Below, piece after piece: positions 10,641 through 43,120 of a stretch of DNA of 52,017 nt (positions are counted from its first letter, which is position 1; each line of letters starts with the position of its first letter). Both the position numbers and the translations under genes were made by a program. The notes under the pieces were generated by a model that worked only from the letters and a program-made list of their open reading frames with translations, searched no databases and was not told the DNA's origin. The stretch comes from an uncultured Archangium sp. (GTDB taxonomy: Bacteria > Myxococcota > Myxococcia > Myxococcales > Myxococcaceae): assembly GCA_903905455.1 (NCBI GenBank), contig CAIVGN010000016.1, forward strand, positions 1 to 52,017, read 5' to 3'.

Positions 10641-10808
10641 GCGGTGGCGCTGGTGAAGCGCTTGGTGGCCCTCGTGCCCCCGCGGGGACTGCACCTCACC
10701 TGCTTCCACTTCAGTCTTCGCGCCCAACGCACGCCTGCGCGCGTCCGTCATGCTGGCTCCCCGCAGGCGCCCGTCGTCACCACGGAGAGGGCGCCTCGGG
10801 CCATCGTC
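10641..10808 (+). mobile_element. IS91-family transposase fragment, copy A (decayed)
   Basis: Plus-strand translation gives 'ALVKRLVALVPPRGLHLTCF' in one frame and, after a one-base shift, 'SVFAPNARLRASVMLAP'. This is the well-known IS91/IS801 transposase segment in which a leucine-rich stretch and 'VPPPR.H' precede 'GVFAPN..LR'. The shift lies in CACTTCAGTC and is identical in copy B (14703-14871), to which this copy is nearly identical over 168 bp. The IS sequence ends at 10808, at the junction with an unrelated BNR-like fragment. No terminal IS features or GTTC-type target are visible. Confidence 0.72.
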
Positions 10809-10940
10809 GGCGTCGCCTCGGACGGCAAGGGCGCATGGTCCAGCGACGACGACGGCTCGAACTGGACGCGCGCCTCGAACTTCCCAGCGGGAAACGGCCT
10901 GCTGTACCTCGCCTCAGGCGACCTCAGCGCCTGCCCGTGA
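10809..10940 (+). pseudogene. BNR/sialidase-repeat-like gene fragment
   Basis: Immediately after the IS91 fragment the plus strand continues GVASDGKGAWSSDDDGSNWT, then 'RASNFPAGNGLLYLASGDLSACP' and a stop. The 'S.DDG.NW' core is the Asp-box (BNR) motif found in sialidases and in Vps10-like or photosynthesis-assembly propellers. Only about 43 codons survive and there is no start. The fragment may be part of a secreted propeller protein whose two ends were lost. Confidence 0.4.
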
Positions 10941-11193
10941 CAGGCCCGCGACGGTGCGCTGCAGTTCGACGAACCGAAGCTCCGTCAGCTCCCCGCTGGG
11001 CACGAGCGCGTCCACGAGACGACCTCGAGGACTGTGTAGTTCCAACCGACGTGCAGAGTCCCGCCCGGTTGCCGGGCGTGAGCTGCTTCTGACCAGCGTG
11101 GAGGTGCCCGCTGCGAAGCCGCGTCGCGCCCTCGTCTTGCGGGCGCTCGGCCTGACGGAGCCAGTCCTCATGGTCGACTGGAGCAATCGCGTT
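10941..11193. other. Non-coding stretch between fragments and the TetR gene
   Basis: No frame with convincing protein character is seen on either strand. The plus-strand frame continuing from the BNR-like fragment reads 'ARDGALQFDEPKLRQLPAG' before a stop at about 11035. This could be more of the same decayed gene. No hairpin with a T-run was found. Confidence 0.35.
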
Positions 11194-11868
11194 TCAGCGA
11201 AGAGCTGCCCGTTGCTGCTGCTTCCGCAGCGTCTCCAGGCCGTCGAGGAGCAGGTCGAGGCCCAGCTCGAGCTGGTGCAGGCCGCTCTGCCGCCCGGCGA
11301 TGACCTCCTGCGACATGCCATTGAGCCACGGGAAGTGCTCCACCGGGATCAGCGGCAGGAACTGCTTCGCCGCCGACGCGTACTCGGTGGAATCGATCGG
11401 GAAGTTCAGCGCCTGGAAGGTGAAGCCGTAGGTGTACGCGTCGAGCGCGTTCCACGCGTGGTCGGCCAGGGCGTAGGGGAAGCCCCCTTGGACCAGCACC
11501 CCGATGGTCTGGTCCACGTAGCGCAGCATGCGGGGCCCGATGTTGAGCCGGGAGACGAACAGCATCGTCGCCCACGGGTGCCGCATCAGCACCGTGTGCG
11601 CTGATTGAGCCCGCCTTCGCATCGCCGCTCTCCAGTCACCGCCCGCCACCGGGAGATCGATCTCGCTGACCACCAACTCCACGAGCCCATCGAGGATCTG
11701 CTCCTTGTTGGTCACGTGGTTGTAGAGCGACATCGCCTCGACCTTCAGCGCCTGCGCGAGGTTGCGCATGGAGAGCGCGTCCAGCCCGTCCTTGTCCGCC
11801 AACTGCAGCGCCGCGCTCATCACGCGCTCCGGCGTCAGCGGCGCCCTCTTCCTGGGCTTCGACTTCAT
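11194..11868 (-). CDS. TetR/AcrR-family transcriptional repressor
   Basis: 224 residues from the ATG at 11868 (MKSKPRKRAPLTPERVMSA). Longer in-frame starts exist up to 11940 but would run through the operator region. The N-terminal helix-turn-helix spans about residues 10-57 ('ALSMRNLAQALKVEAMSLYN' is the recognition region), followed by an alpha-helical ligand and dimerisation domain resembling TetR C-terminal domains. The gene is divergent from an SDR/MDR pair. The 95-bp gap between them contains a 15-bp palindrome, so it most likely represses that pair and itself until a small aldehyde, ketone or quinone-like ligand binds. The ligand is inference. Confidence 0.85.
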   Translation of the reverse strand: MKSKPRKRAPLTPERVMSAALQLADKDGLDALSMRNLAQALKVEAMSLYNHVTNKEQILDGLVELVVSEIDLPVAGGDWRAAMRRRAQSAHTVLMRHPWATMLFVSRLNIGPRMLRYVDQTIGVLVQGGFPYALADHAWNALDAYTYGFTFQALNFPIDSTEYASAAKQFLPLIPVEHFPWLNGMSQEVIAGRQSGLHQLELGLDLLLDGLETLRKQQQRAALR

Positions 11869-11888
11869 ACATACAGCGTAAGCCATGC

Positions 11889-11928
11889 TTGACAGGACTG
11901 CCATGCTGACGTTACTTACGGCGTAAGT
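11889..11928 (+). promoter_or_regulatory. Promoter and TetR-type operator for the SDR/MDR pair
   Basis: TTGACA at 11889-11894 is a perfect -35 hexamer on the plus strand. About 17 bp downstream, where the -10 should be (TTACTT, poor match), begins the palindrome ACTTACGGCGTAAGT (11914-11928): two perfect 7-bp arms around one G. A further half-site GCGTAAG occurs at 11876-11882, near the TetR start. Operators overlapping the -10 are typical for TetR repressors. Confidence 0.6.
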
Positions 11929-11963
11929 CGACCAGCGCATGGTCGCCAGCCAAGGGGTCCGCC

Positions 11964-12884
11964 ATGTCGCTTTACGAGCTGTTCAGGTCGAAGGGTCCCA
12001 GTGGCTTTGGCTACGGCTCCACCGCCGAGCAGGTGACCGAAGGGGTGTCGCTCGGGGGGAAGACCTTCCTCGTCACGGGCTGCAACTCGGGCCTGGGCCA
12101 GGAGGTGCTGAGGGTCGTCGCGCTGCGGGGCGGCCGCGTCGTGGGCACGGCGAGGACGCAGGAGAAGGCGAAGGCGGCCTGCGACGGGGTGACGGGCCAG
12201 ACGGTGCCGCTGGCGTGCGAGCTGTCGGACCCCACGAGCGTGAAGGCGTGCGTGGCGGAGGTGAAGCGCCTGGGCCTGAGGCTCGACGGCATCATCTGCA
12301 ACGCCGGCATCATGGGGGTCCAGACCGAGCAGTGCTTCGGCTACGAGAAGCAGTTCTTCACCAACCACATCGGCCACTTCATCCTCGTCACCGGGTTGCT
12401 CGAGCAGCTCATCGACACGGGCCGCGTGGTGATGCTCAGCAGCGACGCGCACACGATGGCGCCGAAGGACGGCATCCAGTTCGACGACCTGGCCGGCACC
12501 GCGGGCCAGGCCGACATGAGCAGCTATGGCCACTCGAAGCTGGCCAACCTGCTCTTCGCCAGGGAGCTCGCGCGCCGCTTCGCCGGAACGGGGAAGACCG
12601 CCAACGCAGTGCACCCTGGCGTCATCCACACCAACCTGGGCCGGCATACGAACCGGGTCTTCATGTTCTTCTTCGGCCTGCTGGGGCCGCTGGTGCTCAA
12701 GAGCGTGCAGCAGGGCGCTGCGACTGCGGTCTACGTCGCCACCCACCCCTCGGTCGCGACGCGCTCCGGCGAGTACTTCGCCGACTGCAACGTCGCGAAG
12801 GCCAGCGCCATCGCGGGTGACGCGGTGATGGCGAAGCGGCTCTGGGACGTCTCGGAGCAGATCGTCGCCGGCCTTCCCCACTGA
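11964..12884 (+). CDS. Short-chain dehydrogenase/reductase (retinol-dehydrogenase-like)
   Basis: 306 residues. The Rossmann motif TGCNSGLG is at 39-46, the NAG motif at about 112-114, the catalytic Ser in 'VVMLSSDAH' and the catalytic Tyr188 and Lys192 in YGHSK. This is the classical SDR set, with the length and 'SSDAH' style of retinol-dehydrogenase/WW-oxidoreductase-like bacterial SDRs that use NAD(P)H on aldehydes, ketones or alcohols. A hydrophobic stretch 'VFMFFFGLLGPLVL' near residue 235 may touch the membrane or bind a lipophilic substrate. It is the first gene of a two-gene unit divergent from the TetR repressor. Confidence 0.87.
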   Translation: MSLYELFRSKGPSGFGYGSTAEQVTEGVSLGGKTFLVTGCNSGLGQEVLRVVALRGGRVVGTARTQEKAKAACDGVTGQTVPLACELSDPTSVKACVAEVKRLGLRLDGIICNAGIMGVQTEQCFGYEKQFFTNHIGHFILVTGLLEQLIDTGRVVMLSSDAHTMAPKDGIQFDDLAGTAGQADMSSYGHSKLANLLFARELARRFAGTGKTANAVHPGVIHTNLGRHTNRVFMFFFGLLGPLVLKSVQQGAATAVYVATHPSVATRSGEYFADCNVAKASAIAGDAVMAKRLWDVSEQIVAGLPH

Positions 12885-12917
12885 CCTCGTTCCTCCCTTC
12901 ACCCCACAGGAGCTCCC

Positions 12918-13886
12918 ATGCAGGCCATCGTTCATCGCACCTACGGTCCTCCCGATCTCCTGACCCTCGAAGAGATTGAACGACCCGTGCCCGGTGACGA
13001 CGAGGTGCTCGTCCGGGTGCACGCCGCCGCGGCCAGCGTCGCCGACGTGCACATCATCACCGGCACGCCCTACCTCATCCGCCTCAGCCCCTTCGGTGGC
13101 CTGCCGGGGCCCAGGCACCGGGTGCCCGGCGCGGCGATGGCCGGCACGGTGGAGGCGGTCGGCGCGAAGGTGACCAGCCTGCGCCCCGGCGACGAGGTCT
13201 TCGGCCAGGCCACCACCGGCGCGTTCGCGGAGTACCTCGTCATGCCGGCGAAGCTGCTGGCGCCCAGGCCGACCAACCTGTCGTTCGAGGAAGCGGCGCT
13301 GGTGCCCTGGGGCGCCACGGCGCTGCAGGGCCTGCGCGTCGCCGGGCTGAAGGCGGGCCAGCGGCTGCTCGTCAACGGCGCCTCGGGCGGGGTGGGCACC
13401 TGGACGGTGCAGATCGCCAAGTCGATGGGAGCCCACGTCACCGCGGTCTGCAGCACGCGCAACGTGGAGTTGGTGCGTTCGCTCGGCGCTGACGAGGTCA
13501 TCGACTACACGAAGGACGACTTCCTGCAGGGCGGGCCTCGCTTCGAGGTGATGATGGACCTCGTGGGGAACCACCCGCTCTCAGCGTGTCGCAGCGTGCT
13601 CACGCAGACCGGCACCTACCTCCCCTGCTCCGGCGGAGGCGGTGACTGGGTCGGCCCCATGTTCCGCATCCTCATGGGCCTCTTCAGCTCGCTGTTCAGC
13701 ACGAGGAAGTTCAAGACCTTCGTCATGACGCCGAACCAGGAAGACCTCCTCTTCCTCAAGGGGCTCGTCGAGTCCGGCCAGGCCACGCCCATCGTGGAGC
13801 GAGCCTGGCCGCTGCGCGAGGCTGCCCAGGCGCTGCACCACGTCGCGCAGGGACACTCGCGGGGACAGACCGTGCTCAAGGTCTGA
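12918..13886 (+). CDS. MDR-family NAD(P)-dependent oxidoreductase (quinone-reductase/alcohol-dehydrogenase type)
   Basis: 322 residues with ATG at 12918 and AGGAG eight bases upstream. The GroES-like domain spans about residues 1-125; the zinc ligands of true alcohol dehydrogenases are not evident, as in zinc-independent quinone reductases. The nucleotide-binding motif NGASGGVGTWTVQIAKSMGA begins at 153, followed by 'VTAVCSTRNVELVRSLGAD' and 'EVIDYTKDDF', standard for the MDR superfamily. The gene starts 33 bp after the SDR gene and is probably co-transcribed. Together they suggest stepwise reduction of a carbonyl or quinone compound sensed by the TetR regulator. Confidence 0.87.
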   Translation: MQAIVHRTYGPPDLLTLEEIERPVPGDDEVLVRVHAAAASVADVHIITGTPYLIRLSPFGGLPGPRHRVPGAAMAGTVEAVGAKVTSLRPGDEVFGQATTGAFAEYLVMPAKLLAPRPTNLSFEEAALVPWGATALQGLRVAGLKAGQRLLVNGASGGVGTWTVQIAKSMGAHVTAVCSTRNVELVRSLGADEVIDYTKDDFLQGGPRFEVMMDLVGNHPLSACRSVLTQTGTYLPCSGGGGDWVGPMFRILMGLFSSLFSTRKFKTFVMTPNQEDLLFLKGLVESGQATPIVERAWPLREAAQALHHVAQGHSRGQTVLKV

Positions 13887-14073
13887 TCATCGCTTCGAGT
13901 CGATCGAGCTGGTCCGAAGGGCGGTCGGCGACGGACCCCGGCCTCCACCAGTGCCAGCGCAAGCGAAGTCGGTTGAGCAACGGCGCGAGCGCGGATTCCG
14001 CATGACCCGCAGGGGACCTCCGGTCGCGCGCGGCACCTGACGTGTTGGCCGGGTCCCTGCTCTGTCGGTCGCC

Positions 14074-14335
14074 ATGAAAACTCTCTTCAGGGTGCTGGTG
14101 GCGGTCCTCTCGGGGTGTGGCACGCAGAGCCTGGGCTACAGCGCCGTCAACAGCAGCGCGAAGGTCAACGCGACCAGCACCTCCGCGTGGTCCTGCTCGG
14201 CGACCTCGCGGCTGATGACGGGCAACGGCCTTCCCGACCACGACGTCACGGGCGGCTCGTTCGCCACGCCCATCTCGGCGCAGAACCTCTCGGTCACCTT
14301 CACGCGCGCGCCGACGGTCTCTGCAGACAAGGTCA
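14074..14335 (+). pseudogene. YHYH-domain lipoprotein, truncated after the N-terminus
   Basis: From the ATG at 14074 the product starts with a lipoprotein signal, MKTLFRVLVAVLSGC. It continues 'SSAKVNATSTSAW' and TGNGLPDHDVTGG, then 'TPISAQNLSVTFTRAP'. The 'GxPxHDV' and 'ISAQN' pair is typical of the start of YHYH-domain secreted proteins. After about residue 88 the frame runs into low-complexity Pro/Arg/Ala sequence that is antisense to an outer-membrane protein remnant, so the rest of the domain, including the YHYH motif, is missing. Confidence 0.5.
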
Positions 14336-14597
14336 CCAGGCCGCCGCCCGCAGCTCGAGCTGGAGCCCCGAGGCCAGGGGCAGCTCGACCCCGACGAAGA
14401 GATCCGGCCGCACCTCGTTCAGGTTGATCAGGTTGTTGAGCACCGTCTTGAAGCGCCCGCTGACGAAGAGCGAGCCGGCCTGGGTGGCGACCTCCGCCGT
14501 CAGCACCGGCACGAAGACGTCGCCGAGCGGGGGCAGTCCCCAGGCGTTGGCCCAATCAAAGCTCGGCAGGCGCGTGGTGGCGTTGAAGGGCCGGGCC
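14333..14597 (-). pseudogene. Remnant: C-terminal part of an outer-membrane beta-barrel-like gene
   Basis: The minus-strand frame ends at 14333 with 'SGLQLELRAAAW' and a stop. Upstream it reads 'LFVSGRFKTVLNNLINLNEV' and 'RPDLFVGVELPL', amphipathic alternating strands with a terminal aromatic residue as in outer-membrane barrels. The segment begins at the IS91-like sequence of copy B and abuts the truncated YHYH gene on its other side. No start or signal peptide survives. An in-frame ATG exists at 14623, but that part belongs to the IS-derived sequence. Confidence 0.45.
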
Positions 14598-14925
14598 CTG
14601 GGCTTCTCACTGCACGCGGACACGGCCGTGCACGGCTTCGACAGGGTGGGGCAGCAGCGGCTGTGTGGCTACGGCGCGCGCGGGCCCGCGTTGGAGTTGA
14701 CGGCGGTGGCGCTGGTGAAGCGGCTGGTGGCCCTCGTGCCCCGGCGGGGACTGCACCTCACCTGCTTCCACTTCAGTCTTCGCGCCCAACGCACGCCTGC
14801 GCGGGTCCGTCATGCTGGCTCCCCCGCGGGCGCCCGTCGTCACCACGGAGAGGGCGCCTCCGGCCATCGTCAAGCGTGCCCGGCTCGACTGGGCCACCGC
14901 GCTGGCCCGCACCTTCGGCGCCGAC
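14598..14925 (+). mobile_element. IS91-family transposase fragment, copy B (decayed, internal deletion)
   Basis: The plus strand reads GFSLHADTAVHGFDRVGQQR and 'LCGYGARGPALE', matching the IS91 transposase stretch 'lHa.t.v.a.dr..LeRLcRY..RP'. It then jumps, through an internal deletion near 14690-14703, to ALVKRLVALVPRRGLHLTCF. A one-base shift in CACTTCAGTC puts the continuation SVFAPNARLRASVMLAP in another frame, which goes on to 'RLDWATALARTFGAD' and a stop at 14926. The same shift is present in copy A. Confidence 0.75.
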
Positions 14926-14928
14926 TGA

Positions 14929-15010
14929 CGAGGCGCAAGTCGATCGCCTGAAGGTCTCGACTCCGCAGGCCCCGGTGTCCCTCGTGTTCCGCATCGTCGA
15001 GAAGCTCTGA
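14929..15010 (+). pseudogene. C-terminal gene fragment downstream of IS91 copy B
   Basis: Directly after the IS-derived stop codon the plus strand reads DEAQVDRLKVSTPQAPVSLV and ends 'FRIVEKL' with a stop at 15008-15010. The composition looks like a genuine protein end, but no start or family can be recognised. It is probably another gene 3' end brought next to the IS sequence. Confidence 0.3.
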
Positions 15011-15011
15011 G

Positions 15012-15602
15012 TCAGCCCTCGGTGCGAACCCAGTTCGCGAAGGCCTCGACCAACGCGGGTGGGTTCGCGGCTTCGTTCTGCAGCGCGATCTTCTCGTAGT
15101 ACTCGAGCTCGTGAATCAGCACCGGCACGGGGCGGCCCAGAATGCGGGTGATCTCGCCGCTCGCGTGGAGCTCCTTCACCACCTGCACCGCGACGCCCAC
15201 GAACTCGTCCGTCAGGGCTTCGTCCAGCTTCAGCGTGGCTTCGAAGTCTCGATCCTGATCCTCGTCGGAGTACCAGATGCCACGCACCGTGGCCCAGGCC
15301 TGCCGAAGTGACGCGCCGAGGGTGTCGGAGCGTTCGCCGCACACCTCGACCAGCGAGTTCTGCAGCCAGAACGCGAAGTTCCACCGCGCCTCGTTGGGGC
15401 CTGAGGCCCGCGGGGTGCACTCCGCCACCTGTCGCTCGGTATTGAAGCCCACCGTGATGCTCGGCCTGCGCGGGTCATCGTCGAGGTCCTGAACCCAGAG
15501 CGAGATGACGTAGAGGTCAGCGCGATCGTCGGCCGAAATGGAGCTGAGCGCTTTGATCAGCTCGCAGCGCAGGTGCGTGGACAGCTTCATGGTCTGCCGC
15601 AT
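15012..15602 (-). CDS. Uncharacterised cytoplasmic protein, DUF4303-like
   Basis: 196 residues from the ATG at 15602 (MRQTMKLSTHLRCELIKAL); the second Met, at 15590, is an equally good start. The order is an alpha helix, then 'DLYVISLWVQDLDDDP' and 'SITVGFNTERQ', Trp-rich 'EARWNFAFWLQN', and 'WATVRGIWYSDED' leading to a helical C-terminus. The beginning resembles DUF4303/SMI1-associated proteins, where a strand 'fyalsl..dd...p.i.v.fNTe' follows a first helix; this link is by eye only. No signal peptide is present. Similar proteins often occur as immunity-like or orphan genes in myxobacteria, but nothing here proves that. It survives intact between decayed fragments. Confidence 0.6.
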   Translation of the reverse strand: MRQTMKLSTHLRCELIKALSSISADDRADLYVISLWVQDLDDDPRRPSITVGFNTERQVAECTPRASGPNEARWNFAFWLQNSLVEVCGERSDTLGASLRQAWATVRGIWYSDEDQDRDFEATLKLDEALTDEFVGVAVQVVKELHASGEITRILGRPVPVLIHELEYYEKIALQNEAANPPALVEAFANWVRTEG

Positions 15603-15801
15603 TGTTGCCTCGAATGCATGAAACCACGAGGAAACCAGTGGCTTCTCGCACTTGAGGAAGGCGACTCGAGAGGGTGACCCGGACCGGCGCTGCAGCGAGT
15701 CACGTGAGTCACCTTCTTCGCGGCGAGGGGCCTGTTCGCGGCGAGCAAAGCTGCTCGCGACTTTCAACGACTGCTTCCCTGTTTGCTGTTGTCGTCACAC
15801 G

Positions 15802-15882
15802 ACACCGCCAGAACGGATTCTACAAAAACGGGGTTGGAGACACTTTTTGCAGAATCCGTTGCGCGGCAGAATCCGGCGGTGT
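15802..15882. repeat. Nested inverted repeat (hairpin or miniature element end)
   Basis: The inner arms AACGGATTCTACAAAAA (15812-15828) and TTTTTGCAGAATCCGTT (15844-15860) pair at 16 of 17 positions around a 15-base loop. The outer arms ACACCGCC (15802-15809) and GGCGGTGT (15875-15882) are perfect. GCAGAATCCG also recurs as a direct repeat at 15849 and 15867. The A/T runs stand out against the GC-rich surroundings. It lies upstream of the macro-like pseudogene. It could be a terminator-like hairpin, a protein-binding site or a tiny transposable element. Confidence 0.6.
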
Positions 15883-15903
15883 GGCTCGAAGCGGTGTTGC
15901 TCA

Positions 15904-16389
15904 GTGGTCGGCTCGCGTGGCGTCGAAATCCGCGTGGTGCAGGGCGACCTCCTCGAAGTCGATGCCGATGTGCTCGCCGTGAAGCACGCGCAGGGCTTTC
16001 ACTCGTCTGACGGGCTGGTCGCCAGCCGCCTCGAAGCCAAGGGCGTCTCGCGCCGCACCTTCGAGGCCGAGGCCAACGAAGGTCGCTTCTCTCCGACGCA
16101 GGGAGCGCTCGTCGCGCGCGAGGTATTGTTCGTCGGCACCGTGCCTTAGAGCTCGTTCGGGTACCACGACGTGCGCCGCTTCGCGTCTCGCATCCTCGAG
16201 TTGCTGCAGACGCGCGGTACGCCGGTGCGCACCCTGGCGCTGACGGTGCACGGCGCGAACTGTGGCCTCGACGAAGGCGAGTCGGTGTTGGCGCTCGCTG
16301 GCGGGCTCATCGACGGTGTTCAGCGAGGTGCGTGCCCGGGCTCGCTGCAGAAGATCACCATCGTCGAGAAGCGTGAGGGGCGGGCTTAG
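15904..16389 (+). pseudogene. Macro/aminopeptidase-N-like domain with an in-frame TAG
   Basis: From a GTG at 15904 the product reads 'VEIRVVQGDLLEVDADVLAV' and 'KHAQGFHSSDGLVASRLEAKG', then 'ALVAREVLFVGTVP', and is stopped by TAG at 16147-16149. The same frame resumes 'SSFGYHDVRRFASRILELL' and continues through 'LALTVHGANCGLDEGESVLA' to 'LQKITIVEKREGRA' and the final stop. The 'vvqGDl.e..aDvla' opening is that of macro domains and of the macro-like N-terminal module seen before CHAT or other domains in myxobacterial proteins. The downstream partner domain is absent, replaced by IS91 copy C debris. One nonsense mutation plus loss of the 3' part suggests a dead gene. Confidence 0.5.
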
Positions 16390-16499
16390 CGGCTCCAGCA
16401 GACGTTGATGGTGAAGCTCACCGGGCTCTCGGGCGTGACGCTCTCCGGTGGTGCGTTTCGGGTCGAGCGTCCCGCAGGTGCGGCCCCGGTGGCGCCGTC
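16386..16499 (-). pseudogene. C-terminal gene fragment antisense to the macro-like gene end
   Basis: The minus strand reads 'GAAPAGRSTRNAPPESVTP' then 'ESPVSFTINVCWSR' and a TAA at 16386-16388. The final strand-like segment with a Cys looks like a real protein end. No start, signal or family is visible. It lies between the macro-like pseudogene and IS91 copy C. Confidence 0.25.
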
Positions 16500-16533
16500 A
16501 CTGCCGACGCACGGCGTGAAGGCCGTCGGTCAG

Positions 16534-16831
16534 AAGCAACGCACGCCTGTGCGCGTCCGTCATGCTGGCTCCCCCGCCGGCGCCCGTCGTCACCACGGAC
16601 ATGGCGCCTCGGGCCGTCGTCAAGCGTCCGCGGCTCGACTGGGCCACCGCGCTGGTCCGCACCTTCGGTGTCGACGTGTGGCGGTGTCCCTGTGGTGGCA
16701 CGCGCCGCGTGAGGGCCGTCGTCACCCACCACGCCACGGCCGAGGCCATCTTGCGCTCCATGGGGCTGCTGCCGCCGCGCACGCCCACGCCGCTGGCCCA
16801 CTCGCCGCCTCAGCTCTCGCTGGGACTGTGA
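16534..16831 (+). mobile_element. IS91-family transposase fragment, copy C (C-terminus preserved)
   Basis: The plus-strand frame open from an ATG at 16562 to the TGA at 16829-16831 encodes 'MLAPPPAPVVTTDMAPRAVV', then 'RLDWATALVRTFGVDVWRCP', 'CGGTRRVRAVVTHHATAEAI' and 'LRSMGLLPPRTPTP'. This is the canonical C-terminus of IS91/IS801 transposases ('rl.Wa.LlarvF.iDvl.CP.CGg.mr..a.I.d...i..iL..LgLp'). Homology to copies A and B begins at 16534. The catalytic Y-x-x-x-Y region is absent, so the fragment is inactive. Confidence 0.78.
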
Positions 16832-16914
16832 CGCCTGGGGGTCTGCGTGTCCCGACAGGCACGGCACGCCTGCGCCCACACCCTCGGAATCCGCCCTCCG
16901 GGCCCGCTCCAGAG

Positions 16915-17634
16915 ATGCAGGGAACTTCCCGTCCTCCTCGCTGCGCGCCCCTGTCCTCAGGCTCATGCCCCGAGCCCCTCCCGGGCTTCGTAGGGTTGTT
17001 CTTCCTCTACTTCGACAATGAATTCGACGCAGAGCGGAAGCCCGCCGAGTTGCTCACCTTCGCGCTGATCAGCGAGGGGCAGCAGGTCGGTGAGCTCGTC
17101 ACCGGCAGCGGCTACACCACCGAGCTCCTCTCGCGCGCCGTGGGTCCGCTGGGGGTGGTGTACGGGCAGAACCCGCGCCGCGCGCTCACCCGGGGCAGCG
17201 AGGCCACGCTGCAGGAACGCGTGCAGCGGCTCTTCAACGTGGTGCGCCTCGACCGGGCCCTCGACGACCCGTTCCCGATGCACCTGTCGAACACCCTCGA
17301 CCTCGTGCTGAGCAACGCGACGTACCATGACGCCGCGTGGCTCGGCGCCGACCGCGCCCGGCTCAACCACGCCGTGCTCCGGGCGCTCAAGCCGGGCGGG
17401 CGGTACGTGGTGTGCGACTCCGCGGCGGGCGAAGGGCGCGGTGACCTCGACGCCCTCACTGCGCACCGCATCGAAGAGCGCACCGTGCGCGAAGAGGTGC
17501 TGCGCGCCGGCTTTCGCTTCGACGCCGACGCCGGCGACCTGTGCGACTGGAATGGCTCACCCATCGGCAAGGCCGAGAAGCCCGAGGCGCACGACCGCTT
17601 CTGCCTGCGCTTCGTCCGCCCGCACGAGCCGTAG
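16915..17634 (+). CDS. Class I SAM-dependent methyltransferase (COG4798-like), N-terminus doubtful
   Basis: The C-terminal 210 residues are a clear methyltransferase: 'FDAERKPAELLTFALISEGQ', then 'VGELVTGSGYTTELLSRAVG' as the SAM motif I (usually D.G.G.Gy.te), 'PLGVVYGQNPRR', 'LDLVLSNATYHDAAWL' and 'ALKPGGRYVVCDSAAG'. This matches predicted methyltransferases of the COG4798 group, which normally have a signal peptide. Here no export signal is seen. The frame reaches an ATG at 16915 only through sequence that follows the IS91 copy C stop by 83 bp, and a TTG at 16996 is the other candidate start. The original 5' end may have been lost. The acceptor is unknown. Confidence 0.65.
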   Translation: MQGTSRPPRCAPLSSGSCPEPLPGFVGLFFLYFDNEFDAERKPAELLTFALISEGQQVGELVTGSGYTTELLSRAVGPLGVVYGQNPRRALTRGSEATLQERVQRLFNVVRLDRALDDPFPMHLSNTLDLVLSNATYHDAAWLGADRARLNHAVLRALKPGGRYVVCDSAAGEGRGDLDALTAHRIEERTVREEVLRAGFRFDADAGDLCDWNGSPIGKAEKPEAHDRFCLRFVRPHEP

Positions 17635-42111: not shown

Positions 42112-43001
42112 GCCGAGGCCCGTTGAAGGAAGAGCTGCGTCGCAGCGAGCCGGACCCGGCGGCCCTGGAGCGGGTGTGGAGCGGCGTGCGTGCCCGCGAG
42201 CAACGCAGCAGCGTGTTGCCCCTGCGGCTCGTGGGCGTCGCCGCCATCGCCGGCATCGCCGTGGTCTCGGTGCTGGTGCTGCGCGAGCCCTCGCCGGCCT
42301 CGCGGCTGGTGCCCGAGGTCCATGCGTCGTCGCCGGTGCGGGTGCAGCTCGAGGGGAACTCGTCGGTGGAGCTCGAGGGCAACGCCCGCTTCGAGCCCTC
42401 CGTCAACGACGCCCGGGTGCTCTCGCTGCACGCGGGCCGCGCGGCGTTCACGCTGGGGGCCGGGCCGTGGGTGGTGACGTCGCGGTACCTGAGGGTCGAG
42501 GTGGCCTCGGCGATGTTCTCGGTGGAGGTCGGCGGGGAGACGGACTCGGTGACCGTGACGCGCGGGCACCTGCGGCTGTCGGCGCCGGGCCTCGAGGAGT
42601 TGGTGCTCACCGAGGGCCAGTCGTTCTCCACCGGCGCCTCGCAGGTGACGTGGGATTCGCTGGCCCGCGAAGGCGACCTCGCCGGGGCGTGGCGCTCGCT
42701 GAAGGCCGAGGGCGTGCGCGCCAAGGCGCAGGGCGCCGCTCCGGAGTTGACCCTGTTGCTCTCCGACGTCGCGGCGACCGGTGGCGACGAGGCCCTGAGT
42801 CGCGCGCTGCTCTCGAGCGTGATGAACGCGCCCGACGGCGGGGCCGAGCGCGGGCTGGCGGCGTACACGCTGGGGAAGCGGCTGCAGGCTGATGGGCAGC
42901 GCGCCGCGGCCGCCGAGTCGTTCGAGCGCAGCCTGGAGCTCGGGGTGCCCGTGGAGCTGCGCGACGATGCGGCGCGCAGGGCAGCGCAGACGCGACCGTG
43001 A
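42108..43001 (+). CDS. FecR-like anti-sigma factor, membrane-spanning
   Basis: 297 residues. A cytoplasmic N-terminus of about 38 residues could bind the sigma factor; one transmembrane helix follows (LVGVAAIAGIAVVSVLVL, about 41-58). The periplasmic FecR domain comes next ('NSSVELEGNARFEPSVNDA', 'LSLHAGRAAFTLGAGPWVV', 'AMFSVEVGGETDSVTVTRG'). The C-terminus (about 215-297) is a helical, TPR-like segment. Classical FecR proteins receive a signal from a TonB-dependent receptor; none is encoded nearby. Overlap with the sigma gene indicates coupling. The last 39 codons are duplicated downstream. Confidence 0.88.
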   Translation: MSRGPLKEELRRSEPDPAALERVWSGVRAREQRSSVLPLRLVGVAAIAGIAVVSVLVLREPSPASRLVPEVHASSPVRVQLEGNSSVELEGNARFEPSVNDARVLSLHAGRAAFTLGAGPWVVTSRYLRVEVASAMFSVEVGGETDSVTVTRGHLRLSAPGLEELVLTEGQSFSTGASQVTWDSLAREGDLAGAWRSLKAEGVRAKAQGAAPELTLLLSDVAATGGDEALSRALLSSVMNAPDGGAERGLAAYTLGKRLQADGQRAAAAESFERSLELGVPVELRDDAARRAAQTRP

Positions 43002-43120
43002 TGCAGGCTGACGGACAGCGCGCCGCGACCGCCGCGTCGTTCGAGCGCAGCCTCGCGCCCGGAGTGCCCGTCGAGCCGCGCGACAATGCGGCGCGCAGCG
43101 AGGCCCAGACGCGACAATGA
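42883..43120. repeat. 119-bp tandem duplication of the fecR 3' end
   Basis: The segment 42883-43001, which ends with the fecR stop codon, is followed directly by a second copy at 43002-43120 that also ends in TGA. By eye the copies differ at about 17 of 119 positions with no gaps. Copy 2 lies after the stop and is untranslated. A third short match, TGCAGGCATGACG, begins at 43121 and includes the next gene's start. The shared TGCAGGC at the borders suggests duplication by slippage at a 7-bp microhomology. Confidence 0.85.

Follow-up and report, generated by a model that had tools for sequence, protein, structure and literature searches.

A frameshift shared by IS91/ISCR-like remnants of an uncultured Archangium and its probable transfer between diverged copies

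When repeated sequences have a frameshift in common, this is usually taken to prove that they descend from a single dead ancestor. Two fragments of a transposase gene in the genome of an uncultured Archangium sp. (8.6 Mb in 251 contigs, 97.8% complete) carry such a mark, raising the question of how it came to be shared. Both lie in the stretch of DNA analyzed here, an entire contig of 52,017 bases (C16), referred to below as the window. A first-pass annotation of the window had assigned the fragments to an IS91-type element with one extra, inactivating base in CACTTCAGTC, and had proposed that the element died before being copied, or else that the change was spread by gene conversion. A third carrier of the same lesion, on another contig, belongs to a different sublineage. 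We consider it probable (about 0.66) that the ancestor of the two window fragments was already mutated and that the lesion moved between two sublineages, termed X and Y, by transfer of a tract of no more than 42 bp between dead repeats.

Three remnants of an IS91/ISCR-like element

The window contains three copies of the element, A, B and C, on the same strand (+) and inside 6.4 kb. Copy A (10641–10808) is an internal fragment of an IS91/ISCR-like transposase gene that is 96% identical to B and aligns to relatives by tblastn. Copy B, of the same lineage, extends beyond the previously delimited 14703–14871 to about 14589–14925, running from the region before the catalytic tyrosine (RLCGYGARGP) to RTFGAD, where it is truncated. 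Within B, positions 14678–14687 (+) mark the junction of a 66-nt in-frame deletion between 10-bp repeats, GCG(A/C)GGGCCC, that are still separate in a relative from genome G029. Copy C (16537–16831), 91% identical to B over 139 bp and also aligned to relatives by tblastn, retains an intact 3′ terminus of the gene, stop codon included, and starts just downstream of the lesion site; as annotated, it does not include the frameshift region. It is followed by a non-coding right end on the oriIS side (16832–17013, +) that closes in GGGTTGTTCTTCCT (16993–17006), CTA and CTTC, a terminus that also follows further copies, both in this genome and in others. No element end is present in A or B, so that C alone of the window copies keeps a right end, and the 5′ end of the transposase gene is reached by none of the three.

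Intact relatives are known from related genomes, for example a 443-residue open reading frame in G057 (P0001) in which the HUH motif (PHLHC) and the catalytic tyrosine motif (RYGARGP) are both readable. P0001 matches the Pfam families Zn_Tnp_IS91 (9.8e-14) and Y2_Tnp (1.4e-16), a second relative (P0002) matches Y2_Tnp, and intact relatives match the NCBIfam IS91 and ISCR models below strict cut-offs. Pfam searches with fragments A, B and C gave no match, but the fragments do align to P0001 and P0002, and their assignment as IS91/ISCR-like, including the original call for A and B, is supported. About 160–180 bp past the stop codon, the right end of the element consists of GGGTTGTTCTTCCT, three bases and CTTC or CTTG. 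This GGGTTGTTCTTCCTnnnCTTS sequence occurs after C (16993–17013), on contig C43 and at two places on contig C153; G057 is among further genomes that have a near match. ISCR and IS91 elements have in common an HUH transposase, distinct oriIS and terIS ends and presumed rolling-circle movement (PMC13393415). The window element resembles them in its conserved right end abutting a CTTS-type tetranucleotide and differs in that its copies are fragments that domain models do not score and that fall short of the left (terIS) end.

Of the motifs readable in P0001, B retains only that of the tyrosine region, as RLCGYGARGP, and A and C have neither HUH nor tyrosine motif. Both A and B, moreover, lack the N-terminal zinc domain; with this domain and the HUH motif missing, they are dead today irrespective of the frameshift. 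The label inactivating thus calls for caution. An intact transposase of this IS91-like family was not found in the assembled genome, a search of a plasmid collection gave no match, and a scan of genome contigs for copies returned solely the G029 copy.

The lesion and its third carrier

Copies A and B both contain CACTTCAGTCTTCGCGCC. Aligned end to end, 10641–10808 and 14703–14871 are 96% identical, with 6 mismatches and one 1-base gap. At 10710–10713 in A, between TTC-CAC and GTC-TTC, and at 14772–14775 in B (both +), intact relatives read CAC-GGN-GTC and the fragments CAC-TTCA-GTC. The alignment and a protein comparison therefore bear out a shared change with a net gain of one base; rather than a simple insertion, it is the replacement of a GGN codon by TTCA, three bases by four. 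The protein comparison pins the frame break precisely, with ...LVALVPxRGLHLTCFH and VFAPNARLR... in two frames that switch at CAC TTCA GTC. Intact relatives have FHG[V/A/I/L][FY] in a single frame, encoded by CAY-GGN-GTN. Among fetched sequences of related genomes, GGN, mostly GGC, occupies 22/22 distinct intact motif sites and the lesion none, showing that the extra base is not a normal feature of full-length relatives. No other genome of the class has the lesion pattern (147 genomes, up to 2 mismatches). Within TTCCAC, three bases upstream of the lesion, is a TTC that could have served as template, so slippage could have produced the original change. IS91 prefers CTTG/GTTC-type tetranucleotides as targets, and the CTTC at the lesion was considered as the scar of an insertion at the element's own target; a four-base match was all that spoke for this, and the idea was discarded.

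A second indel in A (10759–10762, +), a −1 change giving CCCC where B and C have CCCCC, restores the upstream frame. When differences between A and B were polarized by eye with C and G029, A showed about 2 derived substitutions and 1 deletion, and B about 3 derived changes. With derived changes in both, A is no fresh copy of B, nor B of A. Judged from these differences, A and B are separately decayed descendants of an ancestor already bearing the lesion, in agreement with the proposal that the element had died before being copied.

A search of the whole genome, as the first-pass annotation had suggested, located a third carrier. Allowing up to 3 mismatches, the 8.6 Mb contain three occurrences of the 34-base lesion string and no hit for a reversed control, and the occurrence on contig C43 has 0 mismatches. 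Contamination was ruled out as the source of C43, the GC and tetranucleotide content of which are those of this genome. The C43 copy is longer than the window fragments and is also broken, by other frameshifts and an upstream deletion. It is about 61% identical to B over the 48 codons downstream of the lesion and 63% identical to C over 95 codons. Differences from C (37% of sites; dN ~0.40, dS ~0.90) show an excess at third positions, indicating that most of the separation between the two lineages took place when the gene was still coding. A maximum-likelihood tree built from about 100 codons of the 3′ region recovered (G029,(C,C153)) at 100% and (G004.C122,C43) at 96%, and a topology constrained to unite C43 with C and C153 was rejected (log-likelihood difference 38.5, AU p = 0.0009). 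The C43 copy is thus of sublineage Y, distinct from sublineage X of the window. Both sisters are unmutated: G029, sister of X, has CATGGCGTC, and G004.C122, the sister of Y from another species of the genus, has CACGGAGTC, with GGA-GTC at the site. The G004.C122 copy begins at a contig end, such that Y's sister lacks its 5′ side.

Around the lesion, excluding the lesion itself, B and C43 are identical at 38/38 bases. The same 38 positions show 3–21 differences in 153 pairs of intact copies, although the weight of the match is lowered by motif codons that are conserved anyway. Identity arms of about 21 and 17 bp lie inside diverged context, and the match stops within a few bases on either side, limiting any exchanged tract to about 42 bp. 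The tract therefore has a history different from that of its flanks, as gene conversion between repeats would give: 38 bp and the lesion are identical within copies that the 3′ tree and AU test place apart. A tract of 42 bp or less with arms of this size is shorter than efficient RecA-mediated conversion usually wants.

Routes to a shared lesion

Copying of one dead, frameshifted ancestor, by duplication or mobilization in trans, would account readily for the 96% identity and identical lesion of A and B. Its extension to C43, which would call for a misleading tree, is rather improbable. In the tree, C43 sides with a copy from another species in which the motif is intact, its grouping with the window copies is rejected, and its divergence from C arose mainly in coding sequence. 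Since both sisters are unmutated, a single dead ancestor cannot yield the observed distribution without exchange or recurrence; given also the local identity, it explains A and B and not C43. Recurrence, in which X and Y each acquired TTC independently by local slippage on the neighboring CTTCCAC, has the nearby template in its favor and is unlikely. Among 147 genomes no further copy has the lesion, the X sister has GGC and X would need one more change to reach TTCA, and the perfect 38-bp identity would stay unexplained. That three copies from two lineages of one genome share the change could also suggest a programmed frameshift site in a functional sub-branch, and hence no lesion at all. We regard this as extremely improbable, for every carrier lacks the N-terminal domain or has further frameshifts, there is neither a nearby stop nor a known slippery sequence, and no intact copy has the +1 change. 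Segmental duplication of the locus, also raised in the first-pass annotation, would suit three same-strand copies within 6.4 kb but is very unlikely to have produced A, B and C. Compared pairs have no flanking DNA in common, to either side of A the similarity breaks off within the element, and breakpoints inside the element differ between copies, a contradiction unless all duplicated flank was later lost. Mobilization in trans, the other route named in the annotation, would concern two fragments, A and B, that have lost both element ends, in a genome whose assembly yielded no intact transposase of the family.

The lesion was thus probably copied between dead remnants instead of being inherited by all from a single dead ancestor; with one carrier from a different sublineage, the mark itself has probably been transferred. 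The suggestion that gene conversion spread it gains strong support from C43. According to the short-tract transfer model, A, B and C would be decaying remnants of an IS91/ISCR-like rolling-circle insertion sequence, all from its sublineage X. The sequences show that A and B descend from a copy that already had the GGN-to-TTCA frameshift and that they were later trimmed and mutated separately. The lesion would then have moved without its surroundings between X and Y, as a non-reciprocal transfer of at most 42 bp from one dead repeat of the genome to another, through gene conversion or a template switch during replication. An origin in Y is hinted at by the GGA-GTC of its sister, which needs only GG to TTC, and the new TTC may have been copied by slippage from the one in the adjoining CTTCCAC. 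Because GGA is found at this codon in G004.C122 only among sampled copies, Y is the likelier origin, a weak indication resting on one base.

An endosymbiont is reported to show gene conversion among IS copies that no longer function (Cordaux 2009, Mol Biol Evol 26:1679, as cited in PMC7290912 and PMC4072520), and it has been suggested that recombination of insertion sequences could spread deleterious segments (PMC7290912). The endosymbiont case resembles ours in that dead IS copies exchange sequence within a bacterial genome; here the copies are diverged (about 61–63% identical downstream) and the tract does not exceed 42 bp. The present case is of the same kind, with a short tract and diverged partners, a modest but real instance. 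If general, short-tract exchange can move inactivating mutations from one IS copy to a diverged one and can lead to errors when pseudogene duplications are dated. It is a speculative and improbable further step that very short, template-like exchange among strongly diverged rolling-circle copies, perhaps via single-stranded intermediates of the element, spreads inactivating mutations within a genome and helps to extinguish the family.

Surroundings of the copies

The interval between A and B (11194–13886) holds three complete genes encoding a TetR regulator (− strand), a short-chain dehydrogenase and a zinc-binding alcohol dehydrogenase, possibly a passenger segment flanked by IS remnants. Short apparent pieces of other genes lie beside A and B (10809–10940, 14074–14430 and 14350–14590), giving these surroundings the look of a scrapyard of truncated genes. 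Adjoining the right end of copy C, a methyltransferase-like reading frame lacks an evident start (16999–17631), and its 5′ portion may be where the element inserted. Neighbors to the left and right of the cluster have no common neighborhood in sampled relatives (empty-site synteny), and the insertion history of the cluster is consequently not readable.

Elsewhere in the genome, positions 1–650 of locus L108 on contig C153 contain two element right ends 391 bp apart, one of which runs straight into a 5′-truncated X-lineage fragment, a nested insertion. Right-end sequence without a convincing transposase match alongside occurs near position 1500 of both L135 (contig C93) and L138 (contig C173); these are orphan ends, or belong to other elements with the same terminus. 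Separately, the window contains two adjoining 119-nt direct repeats at 42883–43120 that are 86% identical.
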